Of a stretch of 30,696 nt of DNA, positions 4,942 to 16,232 are shown in pieces. The notes under the pieces were generated by a model. It was not told where the DNA came from. It ran no database searches and saw nothing but the letters and a program-made list of their open reading frames with translations. This DNA is from a virus: IMG/VR virus record IMGVR_UViG_3300037493_000814, positions 1-30,696 of that record; one strand, written 5' to 3'. The position numbers were made by a program, and so were the translations under genes. Positions within the stretch are counted from its first letter, which is position 1. Every line of letters begins with the position of its first letter.

Positions 4942-5247
4942 TTAATGTAATGTATGCACTGTTACTTCATCCAGCAATTGATTGGTCTGAATGTTAACTG
5001 TGCCATTTAATTCTCTTGCTGCGTCTTTAAGAGTTTGTTCTTGTACAAGTGCGCCTAAGAATTCGTGTATTGTTTTAAGACCAAGTATCTTAAGGTTAAA
5101 GATTTCTTTATCTTCATTTGTTAATGTATCAATAGGTATATCCATCATCTTGTGAATGGATTTCTCTATGTCGTTCATCAAGGGCTTGACTGTGACAAGT
5201 AGTTCACCGTCTTGGTCTTTTGCTAATCTATATGTGTATTCAATCAT
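4942..5247 (-). CDS. Hypothetical protein (101 aa)
   Basis: Not recognised. Starts MIEYTYRLAKDQDGELLVTV (a short beta-rich stretch), then helical from about residue 25 to 75. Starts 8 bp inside the upstream zinc-finger gene. A member of the ATAAATA motif set (5277-5290, read TAATAAATACTAT) lies about 30-43 nt upstream of its ATG, so it may start a separate transcript. No catalytic motif seen. Confidence 0.72.
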   Translation of the reverse strand: MIEYTYRLAKDQDGELLVTVKPLMNDIEKSIHKMMDIPIDTLTNEDKEIFNLKILGLKTIHEFLGALVQEQTLKDAARELNGTVNIQTNQLLDEVTVHTLH

Positions 5248-5485
5248 TATTGTCTTTCAATTGTTTCTTTCGTGATATAGTATTTATTACTCTACAAAGA
5301 TTTCTATGGTTTATTAGTACTATTTTGCTTTTGAATGCTGTATCGCACTTTTTGCATCTATATCCTATTGTTCTCCACATTTGTGTTAGTTGAACATACT
5401 GATGTTGTACTGAAGCATAGTCCATGCATTCTGGTATTAGATGTGCTTCATGTAGTTGTTGTGGCGTTAGTTTTTGTATCGTCAT
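5240..5485 (-). CDS. CCHC zinc-finger protein (81 aa)
   Basis: The only recognisable element is C44-x2-C47-x12-H60-x3-C64, with hydrophobic residues F51 and V56-L57 placed as in a classical ββα finger. The spacing is the same as in the finger at the C-terminus of the HNH endonuclease (C114...C134). The rest is helical and the C-terminus basic. It overlaps the NUMOD3 gene by 38 bp upstream and the next gene by 8 bp. Probable nucleic-acid binding; perhaps a detached nuclease module or a small transcription regulator. Confidence 0.72.
   Translation of the reverse strand: MTIQKLTPQQLHEAHLIPECMDYASVQHQYVQLTQMWRTIGYRCKKCDTAFKSKIVLINHRNLCRVINTISRKKQLKDNND
5277..5290 (-). promoter_or_regulatory. ATAAATACTAT motif upstream of 101-aa gene
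   Basis: Minus-strand GTAATAAATACTAT; its 3' part ATAAATACTAT matches the T4 late-promoter consensus TATAAATACTATT closely. It lies within the zinc-finger gene, 30-43 nt before the ATG at 5247. No convincing -35 box. Confidence 0.42.
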
Positions 5486-5801: not shown

Positions 5802-6234
5802 GTGATGGTATTATAAAAGGACTAAGACCAATAACAAATTTGATCTGTTCATTGGATCTAGTATTAATACTTATTTCTTCTAGAGCCTGACCAAATAAAA
5901 CCATTTGTGCTGATATGTTTTCTATTGCATCCATTGTACTTGTACTGAGGTCTCTTTGAGTTCCATACATAAGATTATGTAATAGACCACTGACTAGTGA
6001 AAGAGGACTGTTCTGACCTGTATTGCCTTTAGGTAATGTACCTGTGCGTTTATACCACCAGTGTTTCATCACTTGTCTTATGTCCTCATTACGATGAACA
6101 TCAAGCATACCCATGAGTGATATCCAATAAATGAATTCACTTTGTAACCATACCATATCATTTGGGTCTATGGTAACATACTGTGTTTTTGCATTAGTTA
6201 CTTTTGGTATATATTTAATATAGCGCATATACAT
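5767..6234 (-). CDS. Hypothetical protein (155 aa)
   Basis: Not recognised. First leftward gene after the polymerase, starting at MYMRYIKYIPKV (a second Met lies two codons in). Tryptophan-rich in the first half (W29, W37, W59, W60) and helical in the middle. A motif reading AGATAAATACATTA at 6247-6260 lies 13-26 nt upstream, so it may be transcribed separately from the polymerase. The last 35 bp overlap the NUMOD3 gene. Confidence 0.68.
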   Translation of the reverse strand: MYMRYIKYIPKVTNAKTQYVTIDPNDMVWLQSEFIYWISLMGMLDVHRNEDIRQVMKHWWYKRTGTLPKGNTGQNSPLSLVSGLLHNLMYGTQRDLSTSTMDAIENISAQMVLFGQALEEISINTRSNEQIKFVIGLSPFIIPSHDNTIHQMAPL

Positions 6235-6281: not shown

Positions 6282-8006
6282 TTACACTAAATGTTGTATA
6301 AAGTCAGGTAGTTTATTTGTAGTATGTCCAACAATTCTATAATGTTCTTTTGCTTGTTCTTTAGTCATCAAGCGAATGTAAGGATCATTTGTAGGATCGT
6401 ATTCTGATTGACCATAATCACAAGAATCATCATAAAATCCTTCAGAAGGAATTGATACATGTTTATGTTTTAATTTAACTATAGGCTTAATATGTTCTAC
6501 ACCTGTTAATTTACTAAATGCTTCTTCTATATCTGATTCGTCATCTTCATTATAGGAAAAGCCCCGATTAAAATTTTCTTGAAAACTAATAATTTTGCTA
6601 CCTAACCAGGACAAGTTACCGGTAACAAATTGTTCTTGTAACATTACATGTAATTCTTTCATGTCTACCTTTTTATTGGTATAAACACAATCATGCACAC
6701 GCAATAACACTTTTATATCGTTATCTTGTATAAATTTACTTGACATATCCATGATAATCCGTTCTGTTTTCTGAAAGAAATATGCCATAACTCTGCTTCT
6801 GTTTAATGCATTTCTTCCATCAACTAAGAATGGCTGTAGTTCTTTGGTTACTACTTGTTCGTTGATAAGCATATCTGTAATCAGTTTAGTCATCTCTTGT
6901 TGTTCAATGATAAACTGACTCATCCAAGAATCCTTCAAAAACAAATCTACTGATTTAGTTTTAACTCCATTAATCATTTTAGTGTATTCTATCATTTTTC
7001 TTTTTCCATCATGACCTTTGATTGGATAAGAAAAAATATCGCTTAATGAATTTTGTTGCCAATTATTTCTTTTATCATAAAATCCTGGACTACTAGTAGT
7101 TGCCCCAAAGCCAATTGCTGTAATTGCTTCTTTGATAATTTTTAATCTGTTTTCAAAAAATTTATTAGATTGGTCAATATCAAAGCAATACATTGCTAAT
7201 CGTTTTCTTATGTTATCTTTGTATTTGCCACCGCCCTCAATGTATTCACTGGTATATGTGAATTTTTTGTTGGTAATATCACTTACATAGTTTAGTTTGA
7301 TAGCATAAACTGCTGTATTCAAATCATATTGATAATGATCACCCAATGCGGCATTTCGTACTACTTTACTAGTGTTTTGTAAATTGATACCTTTATAATA
7401 TCTACGCCCATACTCGCTTTCGCTAATAACTTGTGGAAGTATACCATTAGTCATTTCAGCAATTAATAATATAGAATCGGCTTCTTCATGGTATTCTTTA
7501 ATCTTGTCATTTTGAGTATGAAAGTTTTCATTGCCCTTCATAAATGCTTTAAGGCTATTGATATTGATTGGTGTGATGTCAACTAGATTTTCATCTGTAA
7601 TATCTACATTACCATAAAGTTGTATTAGTAATTCTTCAGTATTTTTTGTACGAATTAATTGTTTGAGGTTAAAATTGAGTGTCACGAATGATACCTTTCC
7701 ATTGATTGAATTACCTTCTTGTTCTACATTATAAAAGTTGCTAAATTTCTTCATTACATTGGCAAACTTTTCTCTTTTATCAGTTCCATATATGGACATG
7801 AGACCGCATTTTGTTACAAAATCATCATGTGCTAATTGATATAAATCTGCTTTCTGATATTTAAGTTTATCAGTTAACTGATTTACCAATATATTTCTAT
7901 AATGGTCAATTGCATGATCAATTCGTTTTATATGCCATTCTTGGGTAGCCTTGAAGTAATTGTAAATGGGCTGTGGATCAACAGGTAAAAAATCAGCAAG
8001 ATTCAT
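6282..8006 (-). CDS. Putative palm-domain nucleic acid polymerase
   Basis: 574 aa. Reading in order: GRRYYKGINLQN (200-211); motif A candidate YDLNTAVYAI with D228; motif B candidate K292-x7-F300-G301, matching the K-x7-(Y/F)-G spacing of family A DNA polymerases and T7-type RNA polymerases; motif C candidate RVHDCVYT with H438-D439, like the HD(E/S) of the same superfamily. The N-terminal 190 residues are helical with no recognisable exonuclease or primase signature; the C-terminal 90 residues are acidic then basic. It is the only replication-type gene found, so it probably copies the phage genome or transcribes it. A strong AGGAG lies just before the ATG. The identity rests on motif reading only, and the catalytic call is an inference. 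Confidence 0.55.
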   Translation of the reverse strand: MNLADFLPVDPQPIYNYFKATQEWHIKRIDHAIDHYRNILVNQLTDKLKYQKADLYQLAHDDFVTKCGLMSIYGTDKREKFANVMKKFSNFYNVEQEGNSINGKVSFVTLNFNLKQLIRTKNTEELLIQLYGNVDITDENLVDITPININSLKAFMKGNENFHTQNDKIKEYHEEADSILLIAEMTNGILPQVISESEYGRRYYKGINLQNTSKVVRNAALGDHYQYDLNTAVYAIKLNYVSDITNKKFTYTSEYIEGGGKYKDNIRKRLAMYCFDIDQSNKFFENRLKIIKEAITAIGFGATTSSPGFYDKRNNWQQNSLSDIFSYPIKGHDGKRKMIEYTKMINGVKTKSVDLFLKDSWMSQFIIEQQEMTKLITDMLINEQVVTKELQPFLVDGRNALNRSRVMAYFFQKTERIIMDMSSKFIQDNDIKVLLRVHDCVYTNKKVDMKELHVMLQEQFVTGNLSWLGSKIISFQENFNRGFSYNEDDESDIEEAFSKLTGVEHIKPIVKLKHKHVSIPSEGFYDDSCDYGQSEYDPTNDPYIRLMTKEQAKEHYRIVGHTTNKLPDFIQHLV

Positions 8007-8179
8007 GCTATCTCTCCTACTAGATCAGAGCATGAGTTTGCTTTACCCGGGGGCGTTTCCCCGTAGGGGATATGCCCCGTGATGAATTTAAGATGAGAAC
8101 ATCTATTAGTCGTATCACTTTTTTGTTCTATATTAGTCGTATCACTTTTTAATATTAACCAGTTATAATTTATTTTCAT
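8003..8179 (-). CDS. Possible small leader protein (58 aa)
   Basis: Begins MKINYNWLILKSDTTN and overlaps the polymerase ATG in an ATGA tetramer, as several true gene pairs here do. Against it, the frame runs through two perfect 20-bp repeats (giving KSDTTN twice) and a GC-rich hairpin, and the composition is unlike the neighbours. It could be a coupled leader peptide or simply an open frame through a control region. An upstream in-frame TTG (8194) is less likely. Confidence 0.3.
   Translation of the reverse strand: MKINYNWLILKSDTTNIEQKSDTTNRCSHLKFITGHIPYGETPPGKANSCSDLVGEIA
8048..8079. promoter_or_regulatory. GC-rich nested hairpin before the polymerase gene
   Basis: GGGGC (8050-8054) pairs with GCCCC (8074-8078), and inside it TCCCC (8058-8062) pairs with GGGGA (8066-8070) around a GTA loop, with a symmetric 3x3 internal loop. 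It stands out in an AT-rich genome. No U-tract follows on either strand, so it is not an intrinsic terminator. It lies about 40 nt upstream of the polymerase ATG: an mRNA leader structure or part of a replication origin. Confidence 0.6.
8104..8150. repeat. Two perfect 20-bp direct repeats, 27-bp period
   Basis: TATTAGTCGTATCACTTTTT occurs at 8104-8123 and 8131-8150. On the minus strand each contains GTGATACGACTAATA. Tandem repeats upstream of the replication gene suggest iterons, operators or phage-type promoters. Confidence 0.8.
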
Positions 8180-8271: not shown

Positions 8272-8292
8272 CATAAAATGTCAGAGTATTAA

Positions 8293-8314
8293 ACTGACTA
8301 TCTATTTAGTCAGT
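8293..8314. promoter_or_regulatory. Perfect 8-bp dyad, candidate operator
   Basis: ACTGACTA (8293-8300) and TAGTCAGT (8307-8314) form a perfect inverted repeat with a 6-base centre. On the minus strand it abuts a possible -10 TATACT, with a weak TAGTTA -35 17 nt upstream, so it could be an operator for the leftward transcript. GACTATCT from this dyad recurs at 8379-8386 inside the spacer of the plus-strand promoter. Confidence 0.45.
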
Positions 8315-8365
8315 ATATACACAAACCATACTTTTAACTAGTGTTTTGGATAAACCCAGAAGAAT

Positions 8366-8839: not shown

Positions 8840-9274
8840 TTATTCTGTAGTGCTACGAAGTTTCCACATAATCTTACCTAGGTCATCCATCTGACCTTCA
8901 ATGAAGTTGATTAGCCCATAGCACTTTTCTTCAACTGCCATATCATGACATTCTTCATAATGATCCATTAAAATCTGACTATCTGCTAGTAAATCTTTGA
9001 CCATTCGTAATGCTTCTGGTCTTTCCTTACCATCCTCAATAGAACCAAGTTCCATAATTCGTTTTAGACTGAATGGTGCAATTGCTTGCAATACACGAAT
9101 ATGTTCAGGAATACTATCACTTGCTTCATCAGCAAATTCATATACTTCACCAAACAATTGATGATACTGAACAAAGTCAGGACCTACAACATTAACATGA
9201 AAGCCATGCGCCTTTACATAGTATTGGTAGTTTGTTGCGAATAATCGCTTCATACATTCTATTAATTTTTCCAT
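8840..9274 (-). CDS. Dps-like ferritin protein
   Basis: 144 aa. Fits the Dps fold: YVKAHGFHVNVVGPDFVQYH near the N-terminus and the family ending GQMDDLGKIMWKLRS. Ferroxidase ligands at the dimer interface are H26, H38 (12 apart, as in family), D53 and E57; the usual Asp four residues after the second His is G42, with E43 next to it, so iron oxidation may be altered. Dps proteins form 12-mers that store iron and protect DNA from oxidative damage. It lacks the long basic N-terminal tail that E. coli Dps uses to bind DNA. It is the last gene of the late leftward operon, with AAAGGACAAATAAA before the ATG and a CTAAATACTAC motif at 9287. Likely acquired from a bacterium. Confidence 0.82.
   Translation of the reverse strand: MEKLIECMKRLFATNYQYYVKAHGFHVNVVGPDFVQYHQLFGEVYEFADEASDSIPEHIRVLQAIAPFSLKRIMELGSIEDGKERPEALRMVKDLLADSQILMDHYEECHDMAVEEKCYGLINFIEGQMDDLGKIMWKLRSTTE

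Positions 9275-12576: not shown

Positions 12577-16232
<3,656 letters not shown>

Follow-up and report, generated by a model that had tools for sequence, protein, structure and literature searches.

The gene at positions 6,282–8,006 of the window, as we call the entire 30,696-nt viral record IMGVR_UViG_3300037493_000814, codes for an enzyme of the DNA polymerase I type that has diverged very far and whose nearest described kind is TV-Pol. It occupies a genomic slot at which close relatives carry unrelated replication modules, with primase-polymerase and helicase-like genes among them, and a perfect 20-bp repeat pair lies ~100–145 bp upstream of its start codon (Table 1). We consider it probable that this TV-Pol-like protein is a primase-polymerase and initiator that constitutes the phage's whole replication module, acting at an adjacent origin with a host helicase.

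Table 1. Features of the polymerase gene and its upstream region (positions in the window; aa, residues of the encoded protein)
Feature	Position	Strand	Remarks
TV-Pol-like family A polymerase gene	6282..8006	(-)	574 aa; polymerase core modelled at ~residues 124-490
β-hairpin GRRYYKGINLQNTSKVVR, aa 200-217	7356..7409	(-)	Equivalent of PolA TGR..NLQ..R; R201 nearly invariant
Motif A YDLNTAVY, aa 227-234, catalytic D228	7305..7328	(-)	Alignment
R267, one helix ahead of motif B	7206..7208	(-)	Invariant; aligns near the PolA D-I-H position
Motif B K292-x7-F300-G301-A302	7101..7133	(-)	Alignment
Motif C RVHDCVY, aa 436-442, catalytic D439	6681..6701	(-)	Alignment
Direct repeat copy 1, AAAAAGTGATACGACTAATA, iteron-like	8131..8150	(-)	Sequence search, shuffles
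Direct repeat copy 2, identical 20-mer	8104..8123	(-)	27 bp start-to-start
Inverted repeat GGGGC-ATA-TCCCC-TAC-GGGGA-AAC-GCCCC	8050..8078	(-)	Between direct repeats and start codon

The reading frame and the three motifs recognized in a preliminary description of this DNA (D228 in YDLNTAV, K292-x7-F300-G301 and H438–D439 in RVHDCVYT) lie where that description placed them, and the motifs are not chance resemblances: they are kept across ~30 diverged relatives and fall within a family A fold that is modelled with confidence. Alignment A8, which comprises 28 sequences from two clades, retains R267, K292, G301, A302, E415, H438 and D439 in all 28, and R201, Q210, Y227 and D228 in at least 90%. 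It also contains a fourth conserved element, absent from the preliminary description, namely a β-hairpin (GRRYY..NLQN..R) that matches the TGR..NLQ..R segment of PolA. K292 of the fingers is invariant, but the −4 position holds no conserved Arg, so that the RxxxK feature is missing; the region equivalent to the TV-Pol fingers Asp reads K-D/x-x-[IL]-R, with a variable Asp. The steric-gate Glu that follows motif A in PolA is replaced by V, A or P across the family, a loss that would fit relaxed sugar selection, and motif C reads HD[S/C/A/G], where PolA has HDE and T7 RNA polymerase (RNAP) has HDS. No exonuclease domain was found in the 574-aa protein, in agreement with the earlier reading of its N-terminus.

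To obtain a predicted fold, we built an AlphaFold2 model with alignment A8 as input, and pLDDT values were ~75–93 across most of residues 130–460; a model built without the alignment (pLDDT of 31) was discarded. The model has the thumb–palm–fingers arrangement of family A. A fold search, which the preliminary description had proposed, returned only family A DNA polymerases as best Foldseek matches in the PDB (6vdd, E = 2e-5, prob 1.00), and VIA-align gave Z scores of 15.2 over 277 residues for Pol θ, 14.2 for T7 DNA polymerase, 13.4 for Klenow and 12.1 for mitochondrial RNAP. Among the viral models in BFVD, uncharacterized phage proteins rank first, followed by virophage proteins that include the Zamilon 'DNA replication protein'. 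In the model, D228 and D439 fall on those strands where motifs A and C should lie, and helices 149–158 and 167–185 precede the hairpin and may correspond to the two-helix coiled-coil thumb of TV-Pols. The N-terminal ~120 residues are modelled at low confidence. A winged helix at this end seemed plausible from a sequence pattern in the second clade and plasmid proteins described below, but profile searches gave no confirmation and found no significant helix–turn–helix family in the second-clade N-terminus.

Sequence searches of Pfam, PHROGs, NCBIfam and the PDB with the single 574-aa protein returned no match. The curated family A DNA polymerase model, PF00476, did not match the window, and PF00940 gave no match in a search whose control also failed. 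Viral scans with single proteins and two scans of genome contigs found no relatives, the contig scans thus giving no hint of a host or prophage. The first lead was a tblastn match (E = 0.1) to Desulfovibrio phage 7757, from which relatives encoded by the Polaromonas plasmids pW9NP1 and pH8NP1 were reached, and synteny combined with profiles yielded ~10 homologs of the window protein in phages, together with a second clade of phage proteins (19 contigs). A family member was also reached in an island of a large E. coli plasmid; the copy in E. coli plasmid pF16EC0470-1 (L087:7572-8717) lies near an integrase/AlpA/RadC island, and that in pBone4_5 (L091) is broken across reading frames. In HMM–HMM comparisons, the window clade matched the plasmid branch (99.1%, E = 1e-18), which in turn matched PolA (95.7%, E = 1e-8) with motifs falling on motifs in the aligned columns. 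The window clade by itself scored poorly against PolA (4.5%, E = 0.009), and the sequence link between them depends on the plasmid branch. Comparison by hhalign with five T7 RNAPs gave <1%, and a terminase control also gave no match. The superfamily assignment in the preliminary description, to family A DNA polymerases or single-subunit RNAPs, was thus right, and the profile check that it suggested came out positive for PolA, through the plasmid branch, and negative for T7 RNAP.

The kinship with TV-Pols rests on both sequence and architecture. Our profile A1 matches gp030 of phage Ma-LMM01 (E = 2e-7, motifs aligned; hhalign 84.8%), and Iyer, Abhiman and Aravind named Ma-LMM01 among TV-Pol carriers in 2008 (PMC2579912); the identity of the phage and a transposase neighbor suggest that gp030 is the protein they meant. 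In common with the TV-Pols (PMC2579912; Sputnik V13, SCCmec CcPol, Ma-LMM01), the window protein has a minimal family A core without a fused nuclease, the hairpin Arg (R201), two catalytic Asp residues in the palm and the fingers Lys, and both occur in small mobile elements and phages. Because the Arg of RxxxK is missing, with the invariant R267 one helix earlier instead, we classify the protein as a TV-Pol-like variant and not as a strict member; gp030 lacks this Arg, too. Klenow, T7 gp5 and Pol θ share its fold and motifs A, B and C, but the window protein has neither a 3′–5′ exonuclease nor the steric-gate Glu, and has HD[C/S/A/G] for HDE. The divPolA1 and divPolA2 proteins (PMC11348598) are likewise diverged PolA-like phage proteins without an active exonuclease, but they accompany a regular DNA polymerase in large phages; kinship with divPolA2 was considered and dropped, as the family profile misses both the divPolA2 example and the immuto_3-5A record. 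The connection to the published TV-Pol family goes beyond the preliminary description. The phages studied here link phage, plasmid and island polymerases that are named in none of the family libraries searched.

We compared the replication slot, which has the tail genes on one side and the terminase on the other, among loci whose terminases are 80–97% identical to that of the window. Unrelated replication modules swap at this position. Relatives carry the window polymerase clade or the second TV-Pol-like clade; an AEP PrimPol (PF09250, E = 1.5e-14) with a DUF5906 protein; a PrimPol with a DUF3987 protein; another primase-like/DUF5906 pair; or a ~255-aa protein of no known family. On a terminase tree of 26 phages, nine module changes are required: for example, L041, with the polymerase, is sister to L047, with the ~255-aa protein (support 100/98), and L030 and L106, with the second clade, group with L035 and L037, with PrimPol (support 100/100). 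The window itself is nested in a 100/100 clade of phages with the ~255-aa protein, its nearest neighbors being up to 97% identical. Because the slot of these closest relatives (L006:4814-5581, L007:1279-2061, L012:5818-6585, L047:5716-6447 and L076:5599-6342) holds no recognizable replication gene, the polymerase module may be dispensable; the ~255-aa protein is possibly an unrecognized initiator. The DNA polymerase swapping of Caudoviricetes (PMC11348598) likewise exchanges replication genes in place among close relatives, whereas here TV-Pol-like genes, AEP PrimPol with DUF5906 and an uncharacterized gene replace one another in ~30-kb phages. One 36-kb contig (G003, IMGVR_UViG_3300042868_002254; L048, L096, L119) has a DUF5906 gene at its start and a TV-Pol-like gene near its end. 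The co-occurrence of a helicase-like gene and the polymerase in it had first suggested a genome combining TV-Pol with an SF3 protein; we dropped this reading and do not rely on the contig, as two versions of one slot most likely reflect a strain mosaic assembly.

The direct repeats upstream of the polymerase gene are linked to it. None of 500 shuffles of the region gave a repeat as long as the 20-bp pair. The same pair, at the same spacing, is present in L092, whose polymerase is 47% identical, though much of the DNA around the pair has diverged; a scan of IMG/VR found the 20-mer elsewhere only in the L092 contig, and none of the terminase relatives without the window polymerase clade has the pair. 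Other members of the clade carry a related pair, AAAAGTCACGG, at the 5′ end of the gene. In L041, L096 and L099, both copies lie inside the ORF in different reading frames, which argues that DNA rather than protein is constrained. A search for this pair returned seven contigs, four with the polymerase and three with unrelated tandem repeats in other contexts, and L094, L095 and L097 have no clear repeat pair. The nested inverted repeat keeps its fold in L092 through a compensatory C–G to T–A change, which hints at conservation, two sequences being too few for proof. A second inverted repeat, ACTGACTA-AATAGA-TAGTCAGT, lies upstream of the polymerase module (8290-8315, minus strand). In the second clade, the ORF of L079 contains a 50-nt repeat (5055-5104 and 5892-5941, 88% identical) that encodes IYPIVQQVG twice; similar peptides recur in L030, L105 and L116, and the L079 repeats are possibly iterons.

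The genome of this tailed phage has almost every gene on the minus strand, with portal, HNH, large terminase and small genes at one end and scaffold and capsid genes at the other. Because portal and capsid genes are near neighbors in a circular relative, DSL-LC06 (29.8 kb), the window appears to be a near-complete genome. The scan for other replication genes covered the portal, HNH, zinc-finger-like, homing-endonuclease-like, Dps-like, acetyltransferase, tape-measure and capsid proteins, and none of these matched a helicase, primase or polymerase; DUF5906 was not found in G000. For the ORFs scanned, this agrees with the preliminary statement that the genome has no other replication machinery.

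Two observations, the swaps with PrimPol modules and the cis repeats linked to the gene, point to a role in initiation. In 2008, TV-Pols were predicted to act as primase-polymerases, and Iyer et al. likewise argued function from exchange with primase-polymerase genes (PMC2579912). In the scheme we favor, the N-terminal part would bind the two 20-bp repeats found a short distance upstream of the polymerase gene, which would serve as the origin; a core with the active site, made up of thumb, fingers and a palm with D228 and D439, would start and extend DNA on the opened strand; and helicase, SSB and probably most elongation would come from the host. De novo primer synthesis is suggested by the slot exchange and by analogy with CcPol–MP of SCCmec (PMC7581432, PMC10061031), in which an A-family polymerase takes the place of the primase of a mobile element. 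By the account of its authors in 2020, the SCCmec enzyme was at that time the only TV-Pol tested biochemically; CcPol makes primers de novo with MP bound and on its own performs only primer extension (PMC7581432). CcPol has MP, an OB-fold protein, and a helicase as partners and is, by its author's account, close to housekeeping Pol I, whereas the window protein is very diverged, and the window shows no recognized MP homolog or other candidate for the priming partner that CcPol needs. The window also differs from TV-Pol carriers in that no D5 helicase, recombinase or SSB partner is recognized in it and the polymerase gene, with its linked repeat pair, is the sole recognized replication gene of a 30-kb tailed phage. 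A more far-reaching version, which we put forward tentatively, is a self-initiating single-protein replicon, in which a family A polymerase fused to its own repeat-binding domain would combine the tasks of initiator, primase and polymerase at a neighboring origin of repeats, so that a tailed phage could do with it in place of an entire PrimPol and helicase module. As a natural test case, the phages are minimal: they have one polymerase gene, one repeat pair and no recognized phage helicase, and their genomes otherwise closely resemble those of phages with other replication modules.

Other roles for the enzyme fit less of this evidence. It could be a helper polymerase that depends on primers and serves in gap filling, repair or recombination-dependent replication, while the host starts phage replication: the close relatives without a recognizable replication gene imply that host machinery may suffice for the lineage, and CcPol alone only extends primers. 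The PrimPol exchange and the repeats favor initiation instead, and we think a helper role rather improbable. Slightly less plausible still is a phage RNAP that would use the repeats as promoters and transcribe phage genes as T7 RNAP does. The missing steric-gate Glu, the resemblance of motif C to HDS and of the hairpin GRxY to RGRxY, and the Z score of ~12 for mitochondrial RNAP would all suit such an enzyme, and this idea was also put forward for divPolA2 by its authors (PMC11348598); yet T7 RNAPs share no profile similarity with the family, the repeat pair occurs once, at the polymerase gene and not ahead of other transcription units, and relatives fill the slot with PrimPol and DUF5906. Between the two functions offered in the preliminary description, a minimal replicase is therefore favored over a phage RNAP, and the TAAATA motif proposed there as an element read by the polymerase is not enriched (TAAATAG, 7 found versus 8.7 expected). 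A very unlikely alternative is that gene and repeats form a small mobile cassette, akin to a transposon or satellite, that moves through these phages and has no phage function: TV-Pols mark mobile elements (PMC2579912), occurrence among near-identical phages is patchy and relatives reside on plasmids, one beside an integrase/AlpA island, but no integrase, transposase or flanking repeat adjoins the gene in the window, and exchange is always at the same slot, for other replication genes.

Most coding-strand TAAATAG matches appear to be intergenic. Elsewhere on the minus strand, the window encodes a Dps/ferritin-like protein (8840-9274; PF00210, E = 2e-13; PHROG 'DNA binding protein'), an 81-aa protein with a weak match to a C2H2-like zinc finger (5240-5485, E = 0.001) and a 963-aa collagen-like GATG repeat protein that is probably a tail fibre (12577-15468).
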